From Ignavibacteriae bacterium HGW-Ignavibacteriae-4 (GTDB lineage Bacteria > Bacteroidota > Ignavibacteria > Kapaibacteriales > UBA2268), in contig PGYR01000015.1 in the NCBI GenBank assembly GCA_002839765.1, forward strand, positions 1-60,990: a DNA stretch of 60,990 nucleotides. The letters run 5' to 3'. Below the pieces are notes generated by a model. It searched no databases, was not told where the DNA came from, and saw only the letters and a program-made list of their open reading frames with translations. Made by a program: the position numbers and the translations under genes. Shown here one piece after another: positions 20,875-54,691 of the stretch. Position 1 is the stretch's first letter; each line of letters begins with the position of its first letter.

Positions 20875-21492
20875 TTATTGACGACGTACTCTACGCGGAT
20901 TTTTCTCTTGCTCTTGCTGATTACGAGGGTCTGTGTCGATTTTTTGTTTTAGTTCATCTTCCATTTTCTTAACGTCAACACCTAGCTCTTTTAGAACTTT
21001 AACCGTTAGGTCATACTTGAAATTGGCATAAGCTAATGGCTGAACACTTTGGTCTAAAACAATATCAAACCCCTCTTCCGCAGATACTTTCTGAACCGCA
21101 GCATATATTTTTGACTCTACCGGTACTTGGATTTGTTTTACCGTTTTGTCGAATTCGCCACCTGGTTGGAATTTATCAGTAGCATAATCGCTTTTCTTAC
21201 TAGTTAGTTTTTGCAAATCTGATTCGTTCTTCTGTCTCTCTTCGTCTGACCAGATTAATCGATTTTTCTTTATCTCATATTCCAGCTTGTTAATCTGCTC
21301 TTGCATTGCTTTTATCTCACGCTTCCACTCATCTACTATTGTTTGGATGCGTTGTTCTGCTTGTGAAGCTTCTTCGAATTTCTGTCTTATAGTTTCCGAA
21401 TTGAAAAACCCTACTCTTTGTGAAAAAAGAGATGGACTTGCCATTGCGAAAAGGCAGAGTATCAGCAATATTTTGTATCTATTCAAAAGCAT
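20875..21492 (-). CDS. OmpH/Skp-like periplasmic chaperone, full-length copy
   Basis: 205 residues. Signal peptide 1-24, then a coiled-coil helical hairpin rich in K, E and Q (about 35-120), a hallmark of Skp/OmpH chaperones that hold unfolded outer-membrane proteins. The C-terminal domain contains AEEGFDIVLDQS and a long charged tail, DPRNQQEQEKNPRRVRRQ. It is nearly identical in its first 128 residues to the truncated copy immediately upstream (98 of 128 identical by hand count), so the two are a recent tandem duplicate. It lies directly before lpxD in the envelope cluster. Confidence 0.87.
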   Translation of the reverse strand: MLLNRYKILLILCLFAMASPSLFSQRVGFFNSETIRQKFEEASQAEQRIQTIVDEWKREIKAMQEQINKLEYEIKKNRLIWSDEERQKNESDLQKLTSKKSDYATDKFQPGGEFDKTVKQIQVPVESKIYAAVQKVSAEEGFDIVLDQSVQPLAYANFKYDLTVKVLKELGVDVKKMEDELKQKIDTDPRNQQEQEKNPRRVRRQ

Positions 21493-21569
21493 ATTAACTT
21501 GGGGATTATACGGTTAATTTATACCGTTATTATTTAGTTGTTGCCTCTAATAAGCATTTCAAATCTTTC

Positions 21570-21986
21570 TTATTCTGACATTTTTTCAAAAGAGTCATTT
21601 AATTTTACTTCTACAGGCTCTTGGATTTCCTTTACTATTTTATCGAATTCGCCTCCAGCTTGGAATTTCTCCTTCGCATAGTCGCTTTTCTTTTTAGTAA
21701 TCATTTCCAATTCCGATACATTCTTTTGTCTTTCTTCGTCTGACCAGATTAATCGATTTTTCTGAATATCTGATTCTAATTTGTTAATCTGCTCTTGCAT
21801 AGCTTTTATCTCAAGCTTCCATTCATCTACAATAGTTTGGATGCGTTGCTCTGCATGTTTGGCTTCTTCGAATTTCTGTCTAATAACTTCAGAATCAAGA
21901 ACCCCTTCTTCTTGTGAAAAAAGAGATTGGCTTACCAAAGCGAAAAGACTGAGTATCAATAATATTTTAAATCTATTCAAGAGCAT
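21570..21986 (-). pseudogene. Truncated OmpH/Skp-like duplicate
   Basis: 138 residues, aligned to residues 1-~138 of the 205-residue neighbour with 98 of the first 128 residues identical by hand count. After the stop at KMSE, the frame reads E-R-F-E-M-L-I, a weak match to E-G-F-D-I-V-L in the intact copy, so a stop plus loss of about 65 C-terminal residues explains the truncation. Signal peptide and coiled coil remain, so a short chaperone arm could still be made, but the C-terminal strand region is gone. It lies 37 bp after the third OmpH-like gene and about 78 bp before the intact copy. Confidence 0.75.
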
Positions 21987-22023
21987 ATTAACTTGAAATT
22001 GTTAGGTTATTTACCTTTATTAT

Positions 22024-22548
22024 TTACTTGCCGCCTCTTTTAAGCATATCAAGTACTTTGAAAGTAATATCTAGTGCGTCGTCAGCAAAAAGAACTGATT
22101 CAGTACTACTATCAAGCACTAAGCTCAATTTTTCAGCAGCAGATACTTTGTCTATAGCTTCTTTTATCTTGTTTCTAAGTGGTTGCAATAGTTCTAATCT
22201 TTTCATTTGCAATTCACCTTGTTGACCGAATTTCGCTTGTTGAAATTGCAATACAGTTTGGTTTAATGCTTGTAATTCTTGTTCTGTAGCTAATTGTTGT
22301 TCTTGAGTCATCATACCTTTTTGCTTTTGGTAAGTTTGGAATTTTGATTCCAGATCACCTTGCATTTTCAACAATGAATCTTGATATTTCGTAGCCATTT
22401 CTTTTATTTCAGTATCTATTTTTTTAGCGTCTGGTAATTGCTCTACTACCATTTGTAAGTTAGCAACACCAATTTTAGATGATTGCGCGTTAGCAAATCC
22501 AAAAGTTCCAAATAACAATACGATCAAAAGTAATTTTAAGTTTTTCAT
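22024..22548 (-). CDS. OmpH/Skp-like periplasmic chaperone
   Basis: 174 residues. Signal peptide about 1-21 ending FANAQ, then IGVANLQMVVEQLPDAKKID and an Ala/Gln/Lys-rich coiled coil, and the closing domain KVSAAEKLSLVLDSSTESVLFADDALDIT. This is a normal Skp/OmpH protein, more divergent from the two neighbouring copies than they are from each other. It is expected to escort beta-barrel proteins across the periplasm to BamA, whose gene ends 74 bp upstream. Its presence explains how the adjacent duplicate could decay. Confidence 0.9.
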   Translation of the reverse strand: MKNLKLLLIVLLFGTFGFANAQSSKIGVANLQMVVEQLPDAKKIDTEIKEMATKYQDSLLKMQGDLESKFQTYQKQKGMMTQEQQLATEQELQALNQTVLQFQQAKFGQQGELQMKRLELLQPLRNKIKEAIDKVSAAEKLSLVLDSSTESVLFADDALDITFKVLDMLKRGGK

Positions 22549-37534: not shown

Positions 37535-38908
37535 ATGAATATAGAATTCAAAATAAAGGACGAAAGCACCATACTTCTAAAGCCTGTCAAAAAGGAACTA
37601 GAAAACAATTTAGTTCATTTTGAATTAGTTGATAATGAAAAAAATGTTTGGCTTGAGTTGGAATTAATTGAACACGGGTTAAATATCATTTTTATATCTA
37701 TTGAAATAATTGATGATAAAGAATTCATTGAATCGAAACTAGATGAATTGTATTCTCAAATTATTGAAGTTGAAAAATCAGGAGCTGATAGTTATTTTGA
37801 AAATGAAGAAATTGAGTTAAACCCGTATGACCCTGAAAAAATCAAAGTTCGCTCTGACAAAATCCCAATAACACTTATTGCTCAAATGATTGACAATGGC
37901 GATATAGATATGACGCCTGATTTTCAACGTCATCTAGTATGGAATAATTATCAAAAATCTTTACTCATAGAATCCATACTTTTACGAATCCCTTTACCAA
38001 TGTTCTACTTTGCTGAAGATAAAGAAGGAAAGCTTTCAATAGTCGATGGTTTACAGAGAATCTCTACGATTAAAGAATACATGGATAATAAATTCCCATT
38101 AAAGAATTTACAATACCTAGAAGCAAATTGTGGTGGAAAATATTATAAATCAGAGGGGAATAAAAAAGGTCTTGATTCTAAATATTTAAGATGGTTTAAC
38201 CTTACAAATCTATCTGCAAATATAATTGACCCAACCTCACCTTTCAAAGTTAAGTATGATATTTTCAGAAGAATCAACACTGGAGGAAAGCCTCTGAATA
38301 ATCAAGAAATTAGAAACTGCTTAACTGGACAAGGTTTAAGAGATGTTTTAAAAGAGATGGTTAAACTACCTGAATTCTTATCTGCAACTGATAAAAGTAT
38401 TAAAAGTACTAGAATGGATGATCAAGAAATTGCTTTACGGTTTCTAGTGTTCTATTCTATGTTTGAAAAGTATGGGAACATTGACAAATACACGGGATAT
38501 ATGGATTCGACACTTGATGAATTTACAGAACTAAATATCAAAAGTAAAAGTCAAGAGTTAGTAAAATTCATTCCTCACTTTTCTAACTCTATGAAAAATG
38601 CTGAATATTTACTGGGTAAAAAATGTGCATTTAGAAAGATATTACCGAAAGACACAAAGCCTGACTCTTACAAACAATTGATAAATAAAGCTCTGTTTGT
38701 TTGTATGTCAATACTTTTTGCAAAATATGATTACAGTAAACTTAAAAAATTGAATTTAGAATTGAAATTACAAGAACCAGTTGCAAACAAAATTAATGCT
38801 GATAAAGATTTATTTGCATATCTGTCTTATGGTACAAATGGTAAAGCTAATTTGACTTATACTTTCAAAGTATTGCAAGAACTATTCAACCAACATATAA
38901 ATTATTAG
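37535..38908 (+). CDS. DUF262 (GmrSD/ParB-like) protein with N-terminal extension
   Basis: 457 residues. Residues 1-105 form a polar, beta-rich extension I do not recognise. The DUF262 domain begins near 108 (IPITLIAQMIDNGDIDMTPDFQRHLVW), with FQRHLVW at 130-136 and the signature DGLQR at 171-175 (family DGQQR). DUF262 relates to ParB/Srx nucleotide-hydrolysing folds and is frequent in defence genes such as GmrSD. The C-terminal half is helical, without an HNH signature. It starts a three-gene operon (5 bp to the ATPase gene, which overlaps the third by 4 bp). Confidence 0.82.
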   Translation: MNIEFKIKDESTILLKPVKKELENNLVHFELVDNEKNVWLELELIEHGLNIIFISIEIIDDKEFIESKLDELYSQIIEVEKSGADSYFENEEIELNPYDPEKIKVRSDKIPITLIAQMIDNGDIDMTPDFQRHLVWNNYQKSLLIESILLRIPLPMFYFAEDKEGKLSIVDGLQRISTIKEYMDNKFPLKNLQYLEANCGGKYYKSEGNKKGLDSKYLRWFNLTNLSANIIDPTSPFKVKYDIFRRINTGGKPLNNQEIRNCLTGQGLRDVLKEMVKLPEFLSATDKSIKSTRMDDQEIALRFLVFYSMFEKYGNIDKYTGYMDSTLDEFTELNIKSKSQELVKFIPHFSNSMKNAEYLLGKKCAFRKILPKDTKPDSYKQLINKALFVCMSILFAKYDYSKLKKLNLELKLQEPVANKINADKDLFAYLSYGTNGKANLTYTFKVLQELFNQHINY

Positions 38909-38912
38909 AAAG

Positions 38913-40067
38913 ATGATTCTAAACATTAAAAACTTTAAATGTTTTAAAGACATTGATATACGTATAAATCAACTTACTGTCTTTGCAGGTGCAAACGGAA
39001 ATGGGAAAAGTACAGCAATTCAATCACTCTTATTTCTAAGGAGAACAATTGAACATTGTGCAATTTGGGAAAAGTCATATTTCAATTTGAGAATATTAAA
39101 CGGTCGAAATGTAGAATTAAATGGTGTTTATTGCTTGAATCTTGGGAATAGTGCTTATGTGTTGCCCGTTGATTTCGATGAAACTGATATTAGAATTGGT
39201 TTAACAGATAAAAACGGCGAATTTAGTGTAACTTACAGCACAAATACTGGGAAAGAATTATGGCTTACACCTATTGAGCCACTAGTAAATAACCTTACTG
39301 ATAACCCTCTCTATTTCCAACAGTTTTATTATTTGAATGCAGAGCGTATTGGTCCTAGACTTTCACAAGGTATAAAGTTCTATGATTACCCTAATGTTGG
39401 TTTCAAGGGAGAGTATACGGCACAAGTAATTTCTGATTTGAATTATAGCTATAAAGCTGAAGAAGAAAGAGTAAATTCAGATTTTTTAAAAGGTAATCGT
39501 TTTGAACATCATATTAATGCTTGGTTAGAATATATTATTGAAGGTGCATCCATTATACCACATTTTGATGATAAAACTCACACGGCAAGGCTTGAAGTTC
39601 AAAACATCTATTCCAAAGGAAACCCTATTGTACCAACAAACACAGGATTTGGTATAAGTTACGCCTTACCAATTATAGTTACTGGCCTTATCGCTTTAAA
39701 GAATAGGATCTTAATTGTAGAAAACCCCGAGGCACATTTACATCCCCAAGCACAATCCAGAATGGGGTACTTTCTTGGTGTTATTGCAAATGCAGGTGTA
39801 AGAGTTATCATTGAAACACACAGCGATCATATTATTAATGGCTTACAATTAGCCGTTGCGAAGCAAAAGATTAAGAACTCTGACGTTTCAATCAACTACT
39901 TTAATAAGTTATTGAACTCAAATGCTGAAAACCTTGAAAATAATAGTCAACCTAATGTTCTATCAATCGGCATGACGGCAAAAGGTGAACTTACAGAATG
40001 GCCTTCAGGTTTTTTTGACCAAAGTCAAATTGATTTTGCTGAATTATTTAAAATCAGGAAAGGATGA
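38913..40067 (+). CDS. AAA ATPase of the DUF3696/OLD-SMC-like group
   Basis: 384 residues. Walker A GANGNGKST is at 26-34, Walker B ILIVENPEAHLHP at 266-278, and the H-loop ETHSDH at 301-306. The C-terminus (GELTEWPSGFFDQ, about 358-370) is the DUF3696 signature. An ABC-type ATPase without nuclease domain is expected; it may gate the DUF262 protein. Its start lies 5 bp after the DUF262 stop and its stop overlaps the third gene start (ATGA). This DUF262-plus-DUF3696 pairing occurs in known defence loci. Confidence 0.85.
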   Translation: MILNIKNFKCFKDIDIRINQLTVFAGANGNGKSTAIQSLLFLRRTIEHCAIWEKSYFNLRILNGRNVELNGVYCLNLGNSAYVLPVDFDETDIRIGLTDKNGEFSVTYSTNTGKELWLTPIEPLVNNLTDNPLYFQQFYYLNAERIGPRLSQGIKFYDYPNVGFKGEYTAQVISDLNYSYKAEEERVNSDFLKGNRFEHHINAWLEYIIEGASIIPHFDDKTHTARLEVQNIYSKGNPIVPTNTGFGISYALPIIVTGLIALKNRILIVENPEAHLHPQAQSRMGYFLGVIANAGVRVIIETHSDHIINGLQLAVAKQKIKNSDVSINYFNKLLNSNAENLENNSQPNVLSIGMTAKGELTEWPSGFFDQSQIDFAELFKIRKG

Positions 40068-40759
40068 GTAAGTTCTTTTTAAATAATAACTCAATTAATA
40101 GTGTTACGAATTACAATGAATTTAAAGAGGGGTTGCTTGAACTCATTGCTGTAAATAAACAGCCGAGTCACATTTTCTATAAACATGAATCCATCTACGC
40201 TCTAAAAATATTAGTTGATGGCTTATATACGGTACAACAAGGCAAAGACGAGCAGGAAATTTATCGTTTCCTAGAGCATTTATCTCCATGTGACAAGCTA
40301 GTTGAGACAGAAGATGAAGCAAATACTTATTGCGCTTCAACTATTAATGGTTTCTTTGGCATTAACTTCAAAGATAGCAATATTATTCCTAGTAAACAAT
40401 TAACTGATAATGATGATTATAAGAAATGGTGTTTTGCATTTTTAGACAATAATGACTTTTTCTTATCTAAAACAACTATTCCGATTATTGATAAGAACAT
40501 ACATTTGTCTGACCATCACGGCAAAAAAGAGTTAGATAATTTTTGTAATAAAATTAAAATCAGTCCATATGTAGAAGAAATGAAATCTACGGATTGGGGT
40601 GGTAAGAAATTCATTAGGAAAGTAGAGGCAAATGGTTGGATAGAACTTGTACTTTATAAAACAGACCGACAATATGCTTTAAAAGTTAAAACAACTGGAA
40701 AAGACCAATTAGAAACAGAAGCAATTTCTGAAATTTTAAGAAAAAAATATTATATTTAG
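40064..40759 (+). CDS. Unrecognised third protein of the DUF262/ATPase operon
   Basis: 231 residues, translated with the ATPase through an ATGA overlap. No signal peptide or membrane helix and no motif I recognise. The N-terminal half is mixed; the C-terminus KSTDWGGKKFIRKVEANGWIELVLYKTDRQYALKVKTTGKDQLETEAISEILRKKYYI looks beta-rich. Acting with the DUF262 and ATPase proteins, it may be an effector or sensor; that is inference. It ends 5 bp from the convergent hsdR. Confidence 0.7.
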   Translation: MSKFFLNNNSINSVTNYNEFKEGLLELIAVNKQPSHIFYKHESIYALKILVDGLYTVQQGKDEQEIYRFLEHLSPCDKLVETEDEANTYCASTINGFFGINFKDSNIIPSKQLTDNDDYKKWCFAFLDNNDFFLSKTTIPIIDKNIHLSDHHGKKELDNFCNKIKISPYVEEMKSTDWGGKKFIRKVEANGWIELVLYKTDRQYALKVKTTGKDQLETEAISEILRKKYYI

Positions 40760-46528: not shown

Positions 46529-47299
46529 TTAATCTTTTTTCATTAGATCATTATAGAAATAGTTATTAATTGTATTACATAATGCAACTATTTGAAGTGA
46601 TTCTTCAGTATCAAAAGTATCATGTCTATTAGGGTTACTTTTTAAATCAAGTAAATATTCTTTAGTTCCTTTGGTTAAAGTCAAAACTCGTTCTGGTAAT
46701 TTATTCACAGATAAACTTATCAAATTATCTTTATCTTTTCTGTCTTTACAAATAAATTCTAGTCTCTTAAAATACCTATTTAACTCCCGAATGAAAGGGA
46801 ATAAATCCTCTCTAATTTCATCAAACCTGTCTTTGAAATTTGCTACTGTATGTATTGAGTCATTTAATAAATTTTTATTTTCAATATCACTTGACATAGT
46901 CTCAATATATTTACTAAGTTCCTTTACATTTTTCTCATAATAGATTACGTGATTTATAATCGAATCCGTCTCACGATACAATAAGTCAAAAGTTCTAGCT
47001 GTCCTTATTTCTTCACTCTGTAGATTTATCAAATTCTTTTGCTCAACTAGTTCTTTCTTCTGAGTATAATAAGTCTGAGCTACTAGAATAACGGTAAATA
47101 TTGAAACCAAAGTTCCAAGGTATCCCCCCAAAAAATCACCTAATTCTGAAGCAGTAAAGTCCCCACAAATTATTTGATTAATAATGTATACTACTGTAGT
47201 TAATACATATACTACAACTATCAGAACTAAAACAGGTTTGGTGTATCTAATTATCTTAGTGTCAAAATCAAATTTTAATCCATTGTCATTCTCACTCAT
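46529..47299 (-). CDS. Putative AbiC-like phage abortive infection membrane protein
   Basis: 256 residues from the ATG at 47299, which has AGAAGG seven bases upstream; an earlier ATG at 47320 is in frame. Two N-terminal membrane helices (VLVLIVVVYVLTTVVYIINQ and FLGGYLGTLVSIFTVILVAQTYY) with the linker LGDFLGG and a long cytosolic helical tail match the putative AbiC (putative phage abortive infection) family. It may sense infection or membrane damage. It sits between the OLD gene (35 bp upstream) and hsdM on the minus strand, in a defence cluster. Confidence 0.7.
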   Translation of the reverse strand: MSENDNGLKFDFDTKIIRYTKPVLVLIVVVYVLTTVVYIINQIICGDFTASELGDFLGGYLGTLVSIFTVILVAQTYYTQKKELVEQKNLINLQSEEIRTARTFDLLYRETDSIINHVIYYEKNVKELSKYIETMSSDIENKNLLNDSIHTVANFKDRFDEIREDLFPFIRELNRYFKRLEFICKDRKDKDNLISLSVNKLPERVLTLTKGTKEYLLDLKSNPNRHDTFDTEESLQIVALCNTINNYFYNDLMKKD

Positions 47300-47334
47300 T
47301 TTTTTTCCTTCTAAAATCATAAGGTCGCTGTTAA

Positions 47335-49224
47335 TTAAGCTAATTTAGATAATATTTTGAACCAAAGTTCTAGTTCTTCTTTACCATTATTTTGTTCTAA
47401 TCTTTCAATTGTCATTTTTTTAACGGCTTGAGTATTTAGAACTTTTTTAACTTTTGACTCTTTTCTCTTTTGTTCAGATTTTTCAAGTTCTTCCCAATCT
47501 TTTAATGAAACTAATTCATGTAAAGCTCTAGCTACAATTAGTGGTACATCATCATTATCACCAAAGTCAGGTATACTAACTAAAGTTCCATTTTCCTCAT
47601 AAGCTTCTTGAATTGCATCTTTAGATAAATAGTTTTCTAACTCTCTTTTTGACGTGTTGAATGCTTTTTTTCTTGGATTATTTTCTAAGTTAATCTGCTC
47701 AACATAATTTTTATATTCATCGACATCATTATCATAAATATGTAATTCTGCTTTTCCTAAACCACTTAAATATTTATTTTGAATGTAGAATTTAAGATTT
47801 GATCCACCTGCAATTACATAAGCTATTTGTTCAGTTTTATTTAAATCAATTATTGAATTATCATTCTCATTGAGAATACGGCTATATTCAAATAGAGCAC
47901 TAATATCATGATTACCTTCAACATAAAGTATTTTCTCAACAGAGTCTCGTGGATTAGGCAAAACACCAAGTGATTTAATAATTTTATCCAGTGTTTCTTC
48001 GTTTAAAATGTAATCATCTTCATAAGAACCATAGTTAATATTAAGCCTATCATCATCGTTGGAAATATAAATTAATGAGGAAATCGGTATTTCTTTAACA
48101 AGGTTTGAACTATGTGTAGTAAAAAGTACTTGAATATTATCTTGTTCACTTAAATCTTGTAATGATTTAATAAGGATTAACTGATGGTTGGGGTGTTGTG
48201 ACGTTTCGGGTTCTTCAATTGCGTATATTATTGAAGGTGAATTGTTATCAGCTTTCTTTTTCTCTGCTTGTGCTTGAAAGAAGCTTAATAGTACAAGTCG
48301 CTTAACTCCACTTCCTCTTTTGTTTAGAGGGATATTTTTTTCATTTAGTAATGTTAAATCAAATATTTTATCCCAGCTAGGACTTTTACTAAAATCTGAC
48401 TTTAGTTTCTCTGCTAGGCTTTCATCTAGGTCTTTTAGTTTTTCAATTGTTAATTCTGCAACTTCAGTTGACTTTTCTTTAACTTCTTTTTCAATTTCTT
48501 CTAATAATTCAACAATTCTAGGTAATGCTAATGACTCTTTAATAGCATGTTTCATGGGATCTTGAACATCTTTATCTTTGTCGTCTATATTCTTATCAAC
48601 TTTAAAAATTGAAAATATTGGAAGATATGTTTTAAGTTTTGACCAAATAGTTTTTAAATTACTATCTGAATCAAGGCTCCCATCAACTTTAATTTCAATC
48701 TCTTCCTTCTCACTTTCGATTGAATCTCTAATTGCTTTTCTTAGTGGTGGATTTTTAGTCTTGTTAATACCATCTAAATCTACATCTAATTCCTTTGCTA
48801 AATTCTTTAATGAAGTATTCTTAAGGCTAAGTATTTCCACAAGTTTTTCATTAGTGGGGTGTAAGGCTATTATGAAAGTCGATTTGGAAATACTTTTTCC
48901 GATTTTAAATATTCTTTTTATTTCAAGATGTCCATTAGAGTTCAGAATGTGTTCTTCAGAAGGACTAGACTCTACTGATGAGTCTAAAACAAGACTTTTA
49001 GGTATTTCATCAAATACACAAGTAATCTCTATTGTACCAGTTTCAAGATCAGTATTTAAATCTCCTTTGTCAACATTATCGTTAAAGAAGCCATCTAACG
49101 CCTCAAGAATTGTCGACTTACCAACATCATTCTTGCCAAGTATACACGTTAAGTCATTTATACGAATAGAAGTTATATTCTTATAACATCTGAAATTTTT
49201 TAATTTTAGTTCAATTAGTCTCAT
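47335..49224 (-). CDS. OLD-family ATPase-TOPRIM nuclease
   Basis: 629 residues. ABC-type ATPase: Walker A GKNDVGKST (30-38), signature-like NKRGSGVKRLVLLS (301-314), Walker B YAIEEPETSQHP (334-345) and H-loop FTTHSSNLV. C-terminal TOPRIM: E436 in LYVEGNHD and D498/D500 in IYDNDVD, then KRELENYL near 526-533. OLD nucleases cut or nick DNA and act in phage exclusion. No UvrD-like helicase (GajB) is adjacent, so a Gabija arrangement is not supported; it may act alone or with the MBL and AbiC-like neighbours. Confidence 0.9.
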   Translation of the reverse strand: MRLIELKLKNFRCYKNITSIRINDLTCILGKNDVGKSTILEALDGFFNDNVDKGDLNTDLETGTIEITCVFDEIPKSLVLDSSVESSPSEEHILNSNGHLEIKRIFKIGKSISKSTFIIALHPTNEKLVEILSLKNTSLKNLAKELDVDLDGINKTKNPPLRKAIRDSIESEKEEIEIKVDGSLDSDSNLKTIWSKLKTYLPIFSIFKVDKNIDDKDKDVQDPMKHAIKESLALPRIVELLEEIEKEVKEKSTEVAELTIEKLKDLDESLAEKLKSDFSKSPSWDKIFDLTLLNEKNIPLNKRGSGVKRLVLLSFFQAQAEKKKADNNSPSIIYAIEEPETSQHPNHQLILIKSLQDLSEQDNIQVLFTTHSSNLVKEIPISSLIYISNDDDRLNINYGSYEDDYILNEETLDKIIKSLGVLPNPRDSVEKILYVEGNHDISALFEYSRILNENDNSIIDLNKTEQIAYVIAGGSNLKFYIQNKYLSGLGKAELHIYDNDVDEYKNYVEQINLENNPRKKAFNTSKRELENYLSKDAIQEAYEENGTLVSIPDFGDNDDVPLIVARALHELVSLKDWEELEKSEQKRKESKVKKVLNTQAVKKMTIERLEQNNGKEELELWFKILSKLA

Positions 49225-49373
49225 ATTTAATTCAATTATTGCAGTTTTATTAATTTTAACACTATTAGGCTGTCTTTTATTAGAGAATAGAGCTTTATTT
49301 AGAAATATGAATATCCAATATTGTTTTCAAAAACAATGCTCATCTTATTTATATTGTAATTAATCGTAATAGT

Positions 49374-50426
49374 TTAACAAGAACATTTTAAAGAATTTGT
49401 ACTAAATTGTCCATTTCTCAATACTAGTTGCACTTTCTGCTTTTTGGTCTTATTCCTACAAACTGTACAATATTTAATATTTTGATCTATATAATCTTGA
49501 CAAGGTCTTTTAACTTGAGATCTATCACTTCTTACGAAAGTCAAGTTAGAGCCACTTATTTTAGAGTATGCTAAAGAACTACTTTGTGCACCATGATGTG
49601 GTGCCGTTACAATTGAATTGTCATTTAATTCAATTGTATTCTTAACAAATGATAAATCAGAATCTGCCGTAAATAGAATTTCTGGTTTTTCAGGTTCCAT
49701 GTACTTGAAGACAAGACTTCTTTCGTTAATTGTGGTTAAATATAAAGCCATATCTAAGTCATCAGCATTGTACTCTGTTAACCCTGTTTCGATGCAATTC
49801 AAAGCCCATAGATTGTGATTTACTTTTGTAGCATCCATATTATCAATAAAACTAAACCATCTAATATATGAACCTGATTCAAGACTTAACTTTAATAAGT
49901 TAGTTATTTTCCGTAAATTTAAATGGATTCCTTGTAAATCATCACTGTAATAATGAAAATGATGCTTCATTTCATTTTTTAAATGTTTATATGTGTTTCG
50001 CACTACATTGTAATTCAGTTTTTCTAGATCATTTTCAAAGTTTTCTTTTTTACGTTCTTGTTCTCTTCCCTTAAATCCCCTAATATTCATTTCAACCTCT
50101 TCATGGTTATTATACTTTCTTAGAATTTCAAGAATAGATAACTTCTTTTTAGAAATTGTATATCCTATAGAGCCTAGTATTTCAGGCATCCAAAGCTCTT
50201 TAAAAGTATACTTTTTAGACTTCAGTATTCCAATAATCCCATAAAGGTGATCCGCATCATAATGTGTACAGATTAATACATCGAAATGATTATCGGGAAT
50301 TTTTTCATCATCTAATAATTGGATAATTTGTTTTCTGCTCAATCCACCATCAACTAGAATATTCTTTCCTTCATCCTCTAAATAAAACGAATCGCCCACG
50401 TTTACTGGCAATGCTGTGAATTTCAT
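49374..50426 (-). CDS. Metallo-beta-lactamase-fold hydrolase with C-terminal Cys cluster
   Basis: 350 residues. The metal motif CTHYDADH at 53-60 (H-x-D-x-D-H) and the later APHHGAQ near 275 fit the MBL/ComEC-like hydrolase fold. The last 33 residues hold a CxxC (C320, C323) and a CxC (C348, C350) knuckle that the core family lacks, suggesting a structural zinc or a nucleic-acid contact. It lies upstream of the OLD gene on the same strand (149 bp) and uses the same strong leader sequence as the kinase-like gene. Function unknown; a nuclease or phosphodiesterase is plausible. Confidence 0.75.
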   Translation of the reverse strand: MKFTALPVNVGDSFYLEDEGKNILVDGGLSRKQIIQLLDDEKIPDNHFDVLICTHYDADHLYGIIGILKSKKYTFKELWMPEILGSIGYTISKKKLSILEILRKYNNHEEVEMNIRGFKGREQERKKENFENDLEKLNYNVVRNTYKHLKNEMKHHFHYYSDDLQGIHLNLRKITNLLKLSLESGSYIRWFSFIDNMDATKVNHNLWALNCIETGLTEYNADDLDMALYLTTINERSLVFKYMEPEKPEILFTADSDLSFVKNTIELNDNSIVTAPHHGAQSSSLAYSKISGSNLTFVRSDRSQVKRPCQDYIDQNIKYCTVCRNKTKKQKVQLVLRNGQFSTNSLKCSC

Positions 50427-50443
50427 AATTCCTCCTCTTGAAA
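50424..50443 (-). promoter_or_regulatory. Strong Shine-Dalgarno leader, copy 1
   Basis: The minus strand reads TTTCAAGAGGAGGAATTATG, ending at the MBL start codon. The same 20 bp occur unchanged before the kinase-like gene at 51527-51546. Such a full GAGGAGG is rare in this window and suggests foreign or deliberately strong translation. Confidence 0.75.
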
Positions 50444-50461
50444 TTTAAAATTTTATTTCAT

Positions 50462-51529
50462 CTAATCAGGCAAACTCACAGTAAACTCAGCGCCTTTGCC
50501 TTCTCCTAAGCTCTCTGCTTCTATTGTACCTGAGTGCTTGTCTATAATCTTTCTGCTAAGGTAAAGTCCTAGTCCTGTTGTGCTTTCACCTGTTGTTCCT
50601 CTTCTTCTTACTTTCGTGAACCTATCGAATATCAGATCCTTGTTCTCTGTTGTAAACCCAACACCTTTGTCTATCACTTTTACAAGGGTGTTTGTACCCA
50701 TTCTAGATGAGTTGACTACTATCTCACCACCCACATTTGAATATTTTATAGCGTTACTGATTAGGTTAGTAAACGCTTGTTTTAGTAGTGCTTCCTTACC
50801 ACTGATAAGTCTAATATCTCCAATCATCTCAATCGATAATTTCTTCCTATGTATCTCATCGGCAAATTGCTCTTTGATACTGTTGAACATCGTTTCTAGT
50901 TCTATTTCTTGCTTCATAGATTTAGTAACAAAGACCTCTTCCATCTCTAGCATCCCTTTTACTGAGTCTATTAGTTCTATTTGTTCTAGAGAAGCAGCTG
51001 CAATCTTGGTCTTTAGGTTCTGCTTTTTCTCATCTGTGTCTGCTTGAGTTATCATCTCAGAGTAGTTATAAACCGCAGTGATTTTGTTTCTTAAATCAAG
51101 TGAGATTATATCTAGCATGTCTTTCTTTTCTTTATGTAGCTCATCAATAGACTTTACAGAGTACTGAACTTTACGCATTAGCCTACCTATATCATCATCG
51201 AGATTCGTTGGCAGGTTCGACATCCTTTTATTCACTATAAAATCATCTAGTGATGTTTCAGTGAGTAATAGAGGTTCTATCAAATTCCTTTGTATAAATA
51301 GTGTTAAAACAATACTACCCAATGTTACAACTAGGATTAGAGCAACTAAAACACTAGTATTACCTTCATTTACATCAAAGAACTTCCAAATTCCAATTGC
51401 AGTGATTATTGGAATCAATATTCCAAGTAAAGTGATTGCGTAGAACTTGTAAGCATAATTCTTAAAAAAACTAAACCGTGATAGAAATTGATATATTTTT
51501 AATTTGAATTTTGAACTATCTACTGTCAT
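50462..51529 (-). CDS. Histidine-kinase-like protein lacking the phospho-acceptor His
   Basis: 355 residues. Two membrane helices (about 30-47, 58-80) precede a HAMP-like linker and the dimerisation helix. There, the usual S-H-D-L-R-N is S-L-D-L-R-N: residue 144 is Leu (codon CTT at 51098-51100, one base from CAT). The ATPase domain is intact: NLISNAIKYS (255-264), DKGVGF (287-292), TTGLGLYLS (317-325). It cannot autophosphorylate at the normal site and may be a pseudo-kinase or signal via another enzyme. No response regulator is adjacent; two small unknown genes lie upstream in the same operon. Confidence 0.82.
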   Translation of the reverse strand: MTVDSSKFKLKIYQFLSRFSFFKNYAYKFYAITLLGILIPIITAIGIWKFFDVNEGNTSVLVALILVVTLGSIVLTLFIQRNLIEPLLLTETSLDDFIVNKRMSNLPTNLDDDIGRLMRKVQYSVKSIDELHKEKKDMLDIISLDLRNKITAVYNYSEMITQADTDEKKQNLKTKIAAASLEQIELIDSVKGMLEMEEVFVTKSMKQEIELETMFNSIKEQFADEIHRKKLSIEMIGDIRLISGKEALLKQAFTNLISNAIKYSNVGGEIVVNSSRMGTNTLVKVIDKGVGFTTENKDLIFDRFTKVRRRGTTGESTTGLGLYLSRKIIDKHSGTIEAESLGEGKGAEFTVSLPD

Positions 51530-51546
51530 AATTCCTCCTCTTGAAA
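51527..51546 (-). promoter_or_regulatory. Strong Shine-Dalgarno leader, copy 2
   Basis: Identical 20 bp to the leader of the MBL gene (50424-50443), ending at the ATG of the kinase-like gene. Confidence 0.75.
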
Positions 51547-51547
51547 A

Positions 51548-51754
51548 TTATTGATTTCTACCACTATTTAGAACTGATTTACCTTTTACTGTGAGTTTAT
51601 ATAAACCAACTTCATCGCCTCTGTGTGGAATAACTGTTTTGAATAATATTCCTTCATAGATTTTACAGAATTTAATCTCTGACTCTTCTTCTAATAGTAG
51701 AGTATTTGTTTCTTCTATCTTTTGTAATATATTATTTACTATCTCTCGATTCAC
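51548..51754 (-). CDS. Small hypothetical protein upstream of the pseudo-kinase gene
   Basis: 68 residues from a GTG at 51754 with GGAGG nine bases upstream. Acidic helical N-terminus (QKIEETNTLLLEEESEIKF), then a polar region GDEVGLYKLTVKGKSVLNSGRNQ. Not recognised. It lies 19 bp after the 85-residue gene and 18 bp before the kinase-like gene, so the three probably form one operon and it may be a regulator or partner of the pseudo-kinase. Confidence 0.55.
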   Translation of the reverse strand: MNREIVNNILQKIEETNTLLLEEESEIKFCKIYEGILFKTVIPHRGDEVGLYKLTVKGKSVLNSGRNQ

Positions 51755-51773
51755 TTCGAACCTCCGAGTTTAT

Positions 51774-52031
51774 TTACCTTTCTAGCCAATATCTAATCAG
51801 TGAATTATCAAAATACTCACCCGTTTTACCTGCTATGTATAGCTTCTCTTTCTCTTCTTTAAAATATTTAACACCGACTATTAGCGTCAACAAGGAACGT
51901 GATCTTTCTGAATCGACGTTAAGCTCCTGCTGAATTTCTTCAAGCAGGTCATCTTTCATAACGAATCCACCGATACCATACTTCTGTATGGCATGTTGGT
52001 GGAAAACGTCTGTTTGAATTTTTGTTATCAT
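51774..52031 (-). CDS. Small hypothetical protein, first gene of the pseudo-kinase operon
   Basis: 85 residues. It starts MITKIQTDVFHQHAIQKYGIGGF, then an acidic helical middle DDLLEEIQQELNVDSERSRS, then IAGKTGEYFDN and ends WLER. No family recognised and no membrane segment. It lies 19 bp before the 68-residue gene. Divergent from the CI-like gene at 52382, across a 350-bp intergenic region, so it probably has its own promoter there. Confidence 0.55.
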   Translation of the reverse strand: MITKIQTDVFHQHAIQKYGIGGFVMKDDLLEEIQQELNVDSERSRSLLTLIVGVKYFKEEKEKLYIAGKTGEYFDNSLIRYWLER

Positions 52032-52381
52032 AAAATCTGAAATTCTTTGTTATATCAAACATAAAAATATTATTTATAATTCTTCTGATGGCAAACCGAA
52101 AGTATAAAAAAAGTCTTTAAGGTATTGATATTAGCTATTGTAGTTAATATATGAAACCTATTTCCTATTCTATTATTAACTAAACATATGAATTGTGTCA
52201 AAATTTTCAATTGTTGAGTTGCGACGTAACCTTATGTTGTATAGGTACATAAATCAGATTATACTTAATAGTTATAGAACTATTTTCGTACTTACGGGCA
52301 GACCGTAAGATATTTATTTTAATTATTATTAGTTTAATAGCAATTGATTTATGTTAATCAGAAATAATAAGAAAATTGATT
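52032..52381. promoter_or_regulatory. Divergent promoter region with hairpin element
   Basis: About 350 AT-rich bases between the pseudo-kinase operon (minus) and the CI-like operon (plus). It contains the 33-bp element at 52284-52316, described separately, and a 7-bp perfect hairpin within it (CTTACGG/CCGTAAG). No small gene recognised. Confidence 0.55.
52284..52316 (+). repeat. 33-bp direct repeat element, copy A
   Basis: 28 of 33 bases match copy B at 54589-54621 (core GTACTTACGGG[C/T]AGAC ... AAGATATTTA). Copy A contains a perfect 7-bp hairpin, CTTACGG-GCAGA-CCGTAAG, followed by ATATTTATTTT. It is 66 bp upstream of the CI-like start and 2.3 kb from copy B. Confidence 0.65.
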
Positions 52382-52894
52382 ATGGGTAGATTAGAAGAAT
52401 CGCTACGATTATACGAAATGATACTAGCAACTGGCTTGCGTAAAGCTAAATTTTCAAGTGTAATAGGAATGTCTCAGCAGTCTCTAAATGATTATTTAGA
52501 CGGCACTTCTGATATTAAAATAATATCAAGGAAATTATTCAGAAAAGGATTTAGTATTGACTGGTTATATTCGGGTAGGGGAAATATGTACTTTTCACCA
52601 GATAGATTCGAAGAGCAATTCAGTTTACCGAGCATTCACGACATCAACAAACAAAAGGTGAGGATCAAAGAATGGATAATAATAAATTTCGAGAGCCTTG
52701 AAAACTTCCAAAACGAAAGGAATGTAGATGTTGAGTTATTGGATAGCTTATACAATGATGATGTTATTCAACATGACCTGCTAGTTAAATTAGAGAATGC
52801 AGGATGTAATTTAAAGTGGACTGTAACAGGAATCGAACCGATGTACATAGATAATTTTAACGGAAAGAAATTAATTAGAAAGGGTAATAAATGA
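52382..52894 (+). CDS. Tandemly duplicated CI-repressor-like HTH protein
   Basis: 170 residues from the ATG at 52382; a TTG six bases upstream is in frame. Residues about 14-70 are a CI-type HTH: RKAKFSSVIGMSQQSLNDYLDG, then the characteristic GFSIDWLYSGRGNMY (56-70). Residues about 93-156 are a second, diverged copy ending in AGCNLKWTVTGIEPMY, where W-L-x-G becomes W-T-V-T-G. It may bind DNA as a regulator of the operon and of the divergent pseudo-kinase genes. It overlaps the TPR gene (ATGA). Confidence 0.68.
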   Translation: MGRLEESLRLYEMILATGLRKAKFSSVIGMSQQSLNDYLDGTSDIKIISRKLFRKGFSIDWLYSGRGNMYFSPDRFEEQFSLPSIHDINKQKVRIKEWIIINFESLENFQNERNVDVELLDSLYNDDVIQHDLLVKLENAGCNLKWTVTGIEPMYIDNFNGKKLIRKGNK

Positions 52895-54288
52895 AAAAGT
52901 ATATTTTAATTCTGATAGCCGTTTGCTTGCTCCCGATGAACCTAATGTCACGTGATTGTTTAGATAAATCATGGAAACAATATAAAAATCACGAATATCA
53001 GCAAGCGATCGAAAGTATTAATTCTTGTTTAGATGATATAATATCAGACGGTAAACCTAAAGAAATGGATTATGCGTTCTTTGGATTAGCAAATAATTAT
53101 ATAAAGCTAGGAGATGTAGATTCAGCCTTGAAGTATATTCTCATAGCGTATGATTTAGAAAAGAAATATGAATTAGATCAATCAAAGACATTAAATGAAT
53201 TAGGTCTAATTTATATCGAAAAAGGGATGAATCACCAAGCAATATATTATTTAAAGAAAGCAAAGGAATTAAATTTAAATTCTAATAATAAAATAGAATA
53301 CAAAAGGAACTTATCCAACTTAGGTTTTGCTTATACAAACTTGGAAATGAAGGATTCTGCAACAGCTTATCTAAATTCTGCCCTTAAAATGTCTGATGAT
53401 GAATTAAAAACAAATCCGATGCTTTTAAATTATTTAGCAGTTTCATTCTTTCAAAATAAGGATTATTCAAAATCATTATACTATTTGGAACAATCTTTCA
53501 AAAATTTGACTACTAAGAATAACCAATTAGAAATCTTTATTATTAGTACTAATCTTGAATTAGTAAAATTGTATAATAATATGGAAATTAATAGTTCTAT
53601 TTTTAAAGAATACCTCACATTCACAAAAGCAAAACAAAACTCAAGATATTTTGCAGATGCTAATTATAAGATGTCTATTATAGTATCTAAAGAAAAGGAT
53701 TTAAAAGAAGGTACACGTTATCTTAACGTAGCTAATTCGATATATGTAGAATTAGGGAATATTCTAAAGGCAAAGGAAATAACGAAAACATTTCTATTAG
53801 CAAACAAGATAAGTAAGGTTTCAAATTTGAAATATTCTGAGAATGAACTTACAGAGTTGTTAAATATAGAGTATTCGAAACAATTAGAAAAAGATTTAGA
53901 AGCTAGAATTTCTTCAGATTCATATATTGTAAATATGAAAGAAGAACTTTATTATTCTGAAATTTCATTTTACATGGTTTTGTCTATTTTGATCTCAGTA
54001 TTATTTACAATAGGTATTGCAATTTATAGAATCCGAAAGAATAATTACATCAAGATGCTAATTGAAAGTTATAATAATTATTTGGAATTAATATATCAAT
54101 TGGATTCAAATAGATTAAAGCTTAATCTTTCAAAAATAACAAACTATATGGCTCTTGATAATACTTTTAGAGAGAAACAAATATTCACGGAGTTAGTAGA
54201 TGAAGTCGTGAAAGATACTAATATGATTCGTAAAACCGTAAAAAGCGGTATTGATTTTCAACAAAATAAGAGGTTAAATAATGTCTAA
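52891..54288 (+). CDS. TPR-repeat membrane protein
   Basis: 465 residues. Signal peptide about 1-20, then TPR-like helical pairs from about 25 to 310 (e.g. AFFGLANNYIKLGDVDSALKYILIAYDLE, LNELGLIYIEKGMNHQAIYYLKKAKEL). A single membrane helix lies at 365-383, followed by a cytosolic helical tail with no HATPase domain. The layout resembles TPR-sensor kinases that stop before the dimerisation/ATPase parts, which fits the pseudo-kinase next door. It overlaps both neighbours (ATGA start; 8 bp at the end). Confidence 0.68.
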   Translation: MKKYILILIAVCLLPMNLMSRDCLDKSWKQYKNHEYQQAIESINSCLDDIISDGKPKEMDYAFFGLANNYIKLGDVDSALKYILIAYDLEKKYELDQSKTLNELGLIYIEKGMNHQAIYYLKKAKELNLNSNNKIEYKRNLSNLGFAYTNLEMKDSATAYLNSALKMSDDELKTNPMLLNYLAVSFFQNKDYSKSLYYLEQSFKNLTTKNNQLEIFIISTNLELVKLYNNMEINSSIFKEYLTFTKAKQNSRYFADANYKMSIIVSKEKDLKEGTRYLNVANSIYVELGNILKAKEITKTFLLANKISKVSNLKYSENELTELLNIEYSKQLEKDLEARISSDSYIVNMKEELYYSEISFYMVLSILISVLFTIGIAIYRIRKNNYIKMLIESYNNYLELIYQLDSNRLKLNLSKITNYMALDNTFREKQIFTELVDEVVKDTNMIRKTVKSGIDFQQNKRLNNV

Positions 54289-54556
54289 TACTCCACCACC
54301 ATCAAATTACCAATGGATAGGTAATACCTTAAGTTATACTTTAGCACCTGAAGTTGTAGGTCTAAAGTTAGAATATAAAAGAGAAGGTGAAACGATCACT
54401 CATTTAATATTTGATGATAAAACTTCAGCACCAACTAGTGTGGTTCTATCTTCCTCTCTGGGGCCCAAAGGAACCATTACAGGTATTACTGGAGAGGGTG
54501 ACCATTCGGTGTGGGGTCCTCCAGGTACGGAAGAAATAACTAATCAAACAGTATAG
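54281..54556 (+). CDS. Small hypothetical protein of the TPR operon
   Basis: 91 residues, overlapping the TPR gene by 8 bp. It starts MSNTPPPSNYQWIGNTLSY, then VGLKLEYKREGETITHLIFDD, and is rich in Gly, Ser, Thr and Pro at the end (GPKGTITGITGEGDHS, WGPPGTEEI). Predicted beta-rich and soluble; no signal. Not recognised. It closes the operon just before the second 33-bp element. Confidence 0.5.
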   Translation: MSNTPPPSNYQWIGNTLSYTLAPEVVGLKLEYKREGETITHLIFDDKTSAPTSVVLSSSLGPKGTITGITGEGDHSVWGPPGTEEITNQTV

Positions 54557-54588
54557 ATTAAATTTTATCTGCCCGTGATTACAACTTT

Positions 54589-54621
54589 TTTTGTACTTAC
54601 GGGTAGACTTCAAGATATTTA
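54589..54621 (+). repeat. 33-bp direct repeat element, copy B
   Basis: 28 of 33 bases match copy A at 52284-52316. The local 7-bp hairpin of copy A is broken here (CTTACGG versus CTTCAAG), but ACGGGTAG can pair with an upstream CTGCCCGT (54569-54576) with one G-U, so copy B may act as a terminator of the upstream operon. It follows the 91-residue gene by 32 bp. Confidence 0.65.
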
Positions 54622-54691
54622 AAATAATTTTTATTAAGTTTAACAAATCGAATTAATAAATATTCATATACAACTAATATAGGAGGAAAGT

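Follow-up and report, generated by a model that had tools for sequence, protein, structure and literature searches.

The window, that is the whole stretch of DNA that was analysed (60,990 nucleotides, contig C76 of the source genome, G000), carries on its minus strand a run of genes encoding, in this order, a protein of 85 amino acids (51774..52031), a protein of 68 amino acids (51548..51754), a histidine-kinase homologue here named HK-B (50462..51529), an MBL-fold protein (49374..50426), an OLD-like ATPase whose C-terminus appears by eye to be TOPRIM-like, a 263-residue protein, and the type I restriction subunits HsdM, HsdS and HsdR; the Hsd names were assigned from the sequences, the specificity subunit being recovered also by a PADLOC search. 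The frame of HK-B is free of internal stops and encodes 355 amino acids, arranged as a membrane hairpin (residues about 25-85; 51275..51457), a HAMP-like linker, a DHp region (residues 131-200; 50930..51139) and a CA, or ATPase, region (residues 201-355; 50465..50929), all on the minus strand and with borders chosen by us from the predicted model. Judged from its sequence, HK-B is a predicted membrane-anchored histidine-kinase homologue, a paralogue from which the acceptor His has been lost.

Where HisKA-type sensor kinases carry the phosphoacceptor His, HK-B has Leu144, encoded by CTT (51098..51100, minus strand), in the DHp helix DIISLDLRNKITAVYNYSEM (in a second rendering of the same helix, EKKDMLDIISLDLRNKITAVYNYSEM). 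This replacement had been pointed out in an earlier, sequence-only reading of the locus and is borne out both by the translation and by the alignment with HK-A, the canonical kinase of the same genome, in which the codon is CAT. Immediately downstream, the motif D145-x-x-N148 (51086..51097, minus strand), of the E/DxxT/N phosphatase type, is kept, and is followed by a Lys at position 149 (AAA, 51083-51085, minus strand) where HK-A has a Pro. A second His is also replaced: codon 38 (51416..51418, minus strand) is TTG (Leu) and falls within the 'GIHIPL' motif of the first hydrophobic helix, where the 26 other members of the full-length alignment described below all have His and HK-A has CAT. The constancy of this membrane His in the other members (26/26) suggests that it might serve in the sensing of a metal, of haem or of protons. 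A substitute acceptor was sought near position 144 and rejected: the nearest upstream His, H132, lies 12 residues away, by eye in a different helical register, and in the alignment, again by eye, is not kept in the HK-A proteins.

The N, G1, F and G2 boxes of the ATPase are all intact in the alignment, and Pfam HATPase_c (PF02518) is matched over residues 245-354 with 77.2 bits (cut-off 26.4), in agreement with the earlier claim that the ATPase boxes had survived. HisKA (PF00512), matched over residues 135-189, reaches 13.7 bits, below its cut-off of 26.9; HK-A scores 44.5 bits, and the low value was not retained as a sign of decay because a His-bearing homologue (L057) scores equally low (13.2 bits). 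HAMP is not matched by Pfam in HK-B, the linker being named by eye. In four phmmer alignments, L144 stands opposite the acceptor His of SrrB, of a CovS/VicK-like kinase and of KdpD, and opposite the Tyr of DivL. The structural model (mean pLDDT 77.5; below 50 for residues 310-317) predicts helices at 25-51, 58-100, 113-162 and 166-195 followed by the CA fold, and appears to leave no room for a folded extracellular domain; its best Foldseek match, spanning DHp-CA, is the DivL chain 4q20 (E 6e-16), followed by HK853. The sensor part of the DivL family bears PAS domains, and the family binds DivK~P and exerts control over CckA; HK-B has no Pfam PAS match at E <= 10 and carries Leu, not Tyr, so that it does not belong to that family.

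How unusual is a His-less acceptor site can be estimated at several levels. Within the source genome, all of the 26 HisKA matches at E <= 0.01 (20 of them above the Pfam cut-off; HK-A is in this list and HK-B is not) carry the His; it is likewise present in 39 of 39 other kinase loci aligned as the best matches among those listed, ten of which come from the source genome, and so overlap with the 26, and 29 from relatives (locus L010 was omitted from this set because its match stops short of the DHp). Three further, partial loci (L058, L059 and L063) have His when aligned, the partial loci L060-L062 and L064-L066 lying outside the alignments. In a published survey, 722 of 76,471 HisKA domains, or 0.9%, are reported to be without the His, and a pseudo-histidine kinase is defined there as a kinase homologue that lacks a residue needed for a core function (PMC12632262). 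HK-B corresponds to this definition, its acceptor His being absent and that of its 26 homologues retained; a single His-less protein alongside 26 normal ones, uncommon as it is, is nothing extraordinary, and HK-B is thus unusual at about the 1% level only.

The family to which HK-B belongs was examined in an alignment (A3) of HK-B with 26 full-length homologues, comprising 25 distinct sequences; 12 of the homologues come from a single genus, so that the rows are not independent, and four of the sequences, as well as the distant homologue L056, belong also to the set of 39 loci. Columns 144 and 38 both read His in 26 rows and Leu in HK-B alone, column 149 reads Pro in 14 rows, Phe in 12 and Lys in HK-B alone, column 145 is Asp in 27/27, and of the 27 rows 17 have Asn at column 148 and 6 have Thr there. 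In a sample of 395 genomes from across the phylum, at least 17, source genome included, have full-length members (E <= 1e-36), a lower bound since only the five best candidates per genome were scored; in the organism's own family they are found in 4 of 54 genomes, all of one genus (E <= 1e-32), and among named records in Bizionia, Winogradskyella, Nonlabens, Algoriphagus and Kapaibacterium (19 loci, of which L048-L050 are HK-A genes already counted). The cut-offs of these homologue searches ranged from 1e-20 to 1e-36.

The canonical kinase HK-A is present in all four genomes of the genus (G000:C107, G001:C402, G002:C96 and G003:C88) and, together with proteins of other Bacteroidota, forms a clade of orphan membrane HisKA kinases homologous to HK-B over the full length, in which membrane hairpin, linker, DHp and CA follow one another as they do in HK-B. 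HK-B is 42-46% identical to the HK-A proteins of the genus, depending on the alignment, and 26-35% identical to members outside it. In the tree, HK-B and its remnant in a sister species (G001, see below) join the HK-A clade of the genus (support 99/94), and their stem measures 1.71 changes per column as against 0.58 for HK-A; the tree program warns that long branches meet at this very grouping. With such a stem and such a position, HK-B has the look of a paralogue that diverged long ago, not of a fresh copy. The sequence-only reading had allowed that His in the homologues, with a single mutation or error in this strain, would undo the case. The homologues do carry His (26/26); this does not reduce the matter to a typing error, because they are canonical kinases, among them a separate paralogue in the same genome. 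The reading of HK-B as a pseudo-kinase is therefore supported, the His being gone from a diverged paralogue in which H38 and P149 have changed too.

The changes are unevenly distributed along the protein. Of the hallmark columns (at least 96% identical among the other rows of A3, the set differing slightly by row), HK-B has changed 10/27 in residues 1-85, 1/8 in the linker, 1/7 in the DHp, where the sole column lost is the acceptor His itself, and 2/27 in the CA; for the membrane part against the rest, Fisher's test gives p = 0.012 when the columns are treated as independent, which they are not. The other rows have lost 0-2 such columns in 25 of 26 cases; the remaining one, the distant L056, has lost 15, spread more evenly (7/27, 0/8, 2/7 and 6/27 in the same order), and has kept its acceptor His. 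Identity between HK-B and HK-A is likewise lowest in the membrane part (24/76, compared with 34/70 in the DHp and 71/155 in the CA), which in two HK-A proteins compared with each other is the part most alike (73/76, CA 120/154); the membrane part is thus remodelled in HK-B relative to the HK-A clade. On these losses and identities taken together, HK-B resembles a conserved ATPase core to which a new input part has been fitted and from which the acceptor is missing.

Lacking its acceptor His, HK-B should be unable to autophosphorylate at position 144 or to donate phosphate from there. The explanation to which we incline, at a confidence somewhat short of even, is that HK-B arose by duplication of HK-A, the canonical orphan membrane kinase, and acts as a regulatory pseudo-histidine kinase, a negative or modulatory partner in the HK-A pathway. 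HK-B would bind ATP through its intact boxes and dimerise through its DHp; it could then modulate, or act negatively in, the pathway of HK-A by dephosphorylating a response regulator, with the H+4 residue and not the His as the main determinant and ATP as a cofactor, and/or by forming heterodimers with HK-A that would dampen or redirect the autophosphorylation of the latter, while the remodelled hairpin may let it respond to a different signal.

By analogy, published work on other proteins supports each of these putative steps. In HisKA proteins the conserved His is reported to contribute to phosphatase activity, yet not to be essential for it (PMC12632262), and the acid at H+1 to serve the kinase reaction, the Thr or Asn at H+4 governing the phosphatase, which in DrBphP needs ATP (PMC8292422). 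The E/DxxT/N motif, defined in PMC11502775 and PMC8292422, is reported for 11 of the 12 HisKA proteins of one streptococcus (PMC11502775), and D145-x-x-N148 has the form expected of a dedicated HisKA phosphatase. RetS, described as unable to autophosphorylate, is reported to act as a phosphatase and also to inhibit GacS (PMC5992135); the native paralogues HrrS and ChrS of Corynebacterium glutamicum heterodimerise, and ChrS, when dead, promotes the signalling of HrrS (PMC9491836). The same sources hold points of the opposite sign: phosphatase activity as a general explanation of pseudo-histidine kinases is argued against on grounds of frequency (PMC12632262), DrBphP with Asn or Thr at H+4 has its phosphatase activity abolished (PMC8292422), so that D145-x-x-N148 alone proves nothing, and heterodimers in C. 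glutamicum are reported for native ChrS and not for the truncated pseudokinase (PMC9491836). A literature search on EnvZ H243V found nothing. Three features of the locus itself also count against the modulatory role: residue 149 is Lys; none of the 33 receiver-domain matches of the genome lies on C76 or on the HK-A contig C107; and two of the three regulator-specificity positions (H+8, H+11 and H+15, chosen from the titles of HK853 mutant structures and compared by eye) differ between HK-B and HK-A (T to N, L to M).

Among known systems, HK-B would work, in principle, most like DivL or RetS, being a member of neither. DivL of Caulobacter shares with it the DHp-CA fold and an acceptor position without His; DivL is reported to have lost kinase activity and to have retained dimerisation and regulator binding, its Tyr-for-His site going with poor ATP binding and with the binding of DivK~P, by which it senses a phosphorylated regulator (PMC4211667), whereas HK-B combines Leu with a full set of ATP boxes. 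RetS of Pseudomonas aeruginosa, a kinase-dead protein that controls another kinase, keeps a phosphatase-type motif, as does HK-B; as described, it has an H-box, a degenerate HATPase and receiver domains (PMC5992135), and HK-B is its reverse, with no His, intact HATPase boxes and no receiver. The ChrS pseudokinase variant of C. glutamicum is the dead member of a paralogous kinase pair, obtained by a laboratory-evolved frameshift in the CA, and its truncated form gave no heterodimer in the two-hybrid assay reported (PMC9491836); HK-B is natural, and has lost the acceptor His instead.

The main rival of a regulatory pseudo-kinase is a dispensable paralogue in the course of losing its function, whose His was lost by drift and so recently that the CA is still intact; we consider this a real possibility, if a somewhat doubtful one. 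It draws on the long stem of HK-B, on the changes at H38, P149 and the 10/27 hallmark columns of the membrane part, and above all on the state of the gene in the genus, intact in one of the four genomes, a remnant in another and undetected in two. In the sister species G001, all that contig C36 retains of HK-B is 236 bases from the 3' end (83% identical, about 74 codons), downstream of counterparts of the 85-residue and 68-residue genes (84% over 494 bases), and two other small open reading frames sit where the 5' part would lie; in G002 and G003 HK-B has no match at E <= 1e-20, a threshold that a shorter remnant could escape. The gene can therefore be lost, and no other result speaks so strongly against a vital role; HK-B looks dispensable. 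Three features do not fit a protein that is decaying: the frame is open over its full length behind an AGGAGG leader (51526..51550, minus strand), 25 of the 27 CA hallmark columns are kept, and, over the 71 codons in which the CA can be compared with the G001 remnant, pN is 0.079 and pS 0.442, giving a dN/dS of 0.124. Such a ratio points to purifying selection on the ATPase end during a large part of the period after the two HK-B copies separated; the remnant, the sole close copy found, lacks the DHp and with it the acceptor region, so that the low ratio cannot be dated against the loss of the His. Only this pair was used, synonymous sites between HK-A and HK-B being saturated.

It is unlikely that HK-B is a working second kinase in which CTT reflects an error of sequencing or assembly, or else a mutation that this strain acquired very recently. 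One base separates CAT from CTT, and the assembly consists of 110 contigs with a contamination estimate of 3.42%; codons 149 (AAA against CCT) and 38 (TTG against CAT), however, differ from those of HK-A at all three bases, and the tree makes the entire gene a diverged paralogue. Since H38 and P149 have changed in that same paralogue, the idea of a normal kinase hit by one recent error has little to commend it.

Catalysis in trans, whereby HK-B and HK-A would pair and the CA of the former phosphorylate the His of the latter, seems to us more improbable. The intact CA boxes would allow it, and the DHp is the region in which HK-B comes closest to HK-A (34/70); the mixed HK-A/HK-B dimer is, however, hypothetical, and in many HisKA kinases the reaction runs in cis, according to the handedness of a loop.

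The surroundings of HK-B raise a further candidate function: with the adjacent MBL-fold protein and OLD-like ATPase it would form an anti-phage system, serving as its membrane sensor or as an ATPase subunit. In PADLOC searches the MBL-fold protein matches LmuA (E 8e-15), RTasMBL (1.5e-13) and Avs1a (1e-9), the OLD-like protein matches the AriA, Old and GajA models, and the proteins encoded at 37535-40759 match NsnA, NsnB and NsnC; HK-B and the MBL-fold gene lie on the same strand, 35 bases apart, and the 25-base leader of HK-B is 96% identical to that of the MBL-fold gene (50423-50447). On the other side, no PADLOC family matches HK-B at E <= 0.001; among 100 genomes searched the MBL-fold protein occurs in the source genome and in 0/99 others (E <= 1e-10), and it has no match in plasmid records; the G001 remnant of HK-B adjoins other genes; and the G+C content of the MBL-fold gene (0.30) and of the OLD-like gene (0.289) is below that of HK-B (0.349; window 0.336). 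An anti-phage component would be expected to match a defence model or to show conserved linkage, and HK-B does neither. That it is such a subunit is very improbable, and the same holds for its more specific form, in which HK-B, with its intact ATPase and changed hairpin, would be the ATP-gated sensor and trigger of an anti-phage operon for the two neighbours; were it true, a His-less two-component core would have been recruited to trigger such an operon.

The occurrence of the MBL-fold protein in one genome, with the low G+C of its gene and of the OLD-like gene, makes HK-B seem the resident and the defence genes the newcomers that landed beside it. The stress that had been laid on an unusual kinase within a defence island stands as regards the place, since type I restriction, Nsn, OLD-like and MBL-fold genes adjoin it, and as regards rarity, at about 1%; it does not stand as regards function, the MBL-fold gene being confined to one genome in 100, lower in G+C and absent beside the G001 remnant. 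The link of HK-B with defence is positional only; the MBL-fold protein is its neighbour, and we do not claim that the two belong to one system. An origin of HK-B from viruses or plasmids was also considered and rejected: viral contigs, searched for two N-terminal peptide patterns, yielded no relative, and of the 3,850 plasmid records that match none reaches 60% identity, the 15 matches listed being 26-32% identical to HK-B; of these, 14 are annotated (as kinases, ATP-binding or CHASE3 proteins) and one is not. A scan of promoter-like sites (47 against 34.8 expected) and terminator-like sites (2 against 2.0) was uninformative on the operon.

Several other features of the window may be recorded here. 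The nearly identical 25-base leaders might mean that the MBL-fold gene joined downstream by way of a copied ribosome-binding stretch. The genes at 46529-50426, for the 263-residue protein (no Pfam match over its cut-off), the OLD/AriA-like ATPase and the MBL-fold protein, stand beside the type I restriction genes and could form an undescribed defence set. Upstream of HK-B, 51548-54556 is a divergent unit, with the 85-residue and 68-residue genes on one side and those for a 172-residue protein, a 465-residue TPR protein and a 91-residue protein on the other. This unit recurs in the genus: it is complete at G000:C54, is found at G001:C283 with the 91-residue gene not seen, at G003:C46 with the 85-residue gene degraded, and at G003:C90 with the 68-residue gene not seen, where its 85-residue side faces Cas6, Cas5b and Cas3 genes; the unit may act as a module at which variable cargo, some of it defence genes, lands or is controlled. 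At L046 (G001:C36, 4013-6806) the start of the 85-residue gene, together with DNA adjoining it, recurs amid other genes: a stretch of 262 bases occurs twice (92%), and one of 85 bases occurs three times (92% and 76% to the reference), a pattern that would be expected had genes been inserted beside such copies. Within the window, the 172-, 465- and 91-residue genes lie between two direct copies of a sequence of about 64 bases (81%; 52275-52337 and 54580-54643), the first of which holds a terminator-like hairpin. At 21102-22052, two neighbouring genes which we take to be OmpH/Skp-like are covered by a tandem duplication whose adjacent units, of about 460 bases each, share 80% identity.

As for the regulatory pseudo-histidine kinase, silent kinases of this sort are uncommon and of a kind already known, to which HK-B adds one. 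What distinguishes it is the sharpness of the change, the His being lost while the ATP boxes and the phosphatase-type motif are kept and the membrane sensor has diverged most. A natural pseudo-histidine kinase and its canonical paralogue in one genome lend themselves to asking what a kinase core can do without phosphotransfer, and the proposal of a kinase turned phosphatase or dimer partner is directly testable against HK-A; HK-B would thus be a good example and a clean test, and not a new principle.
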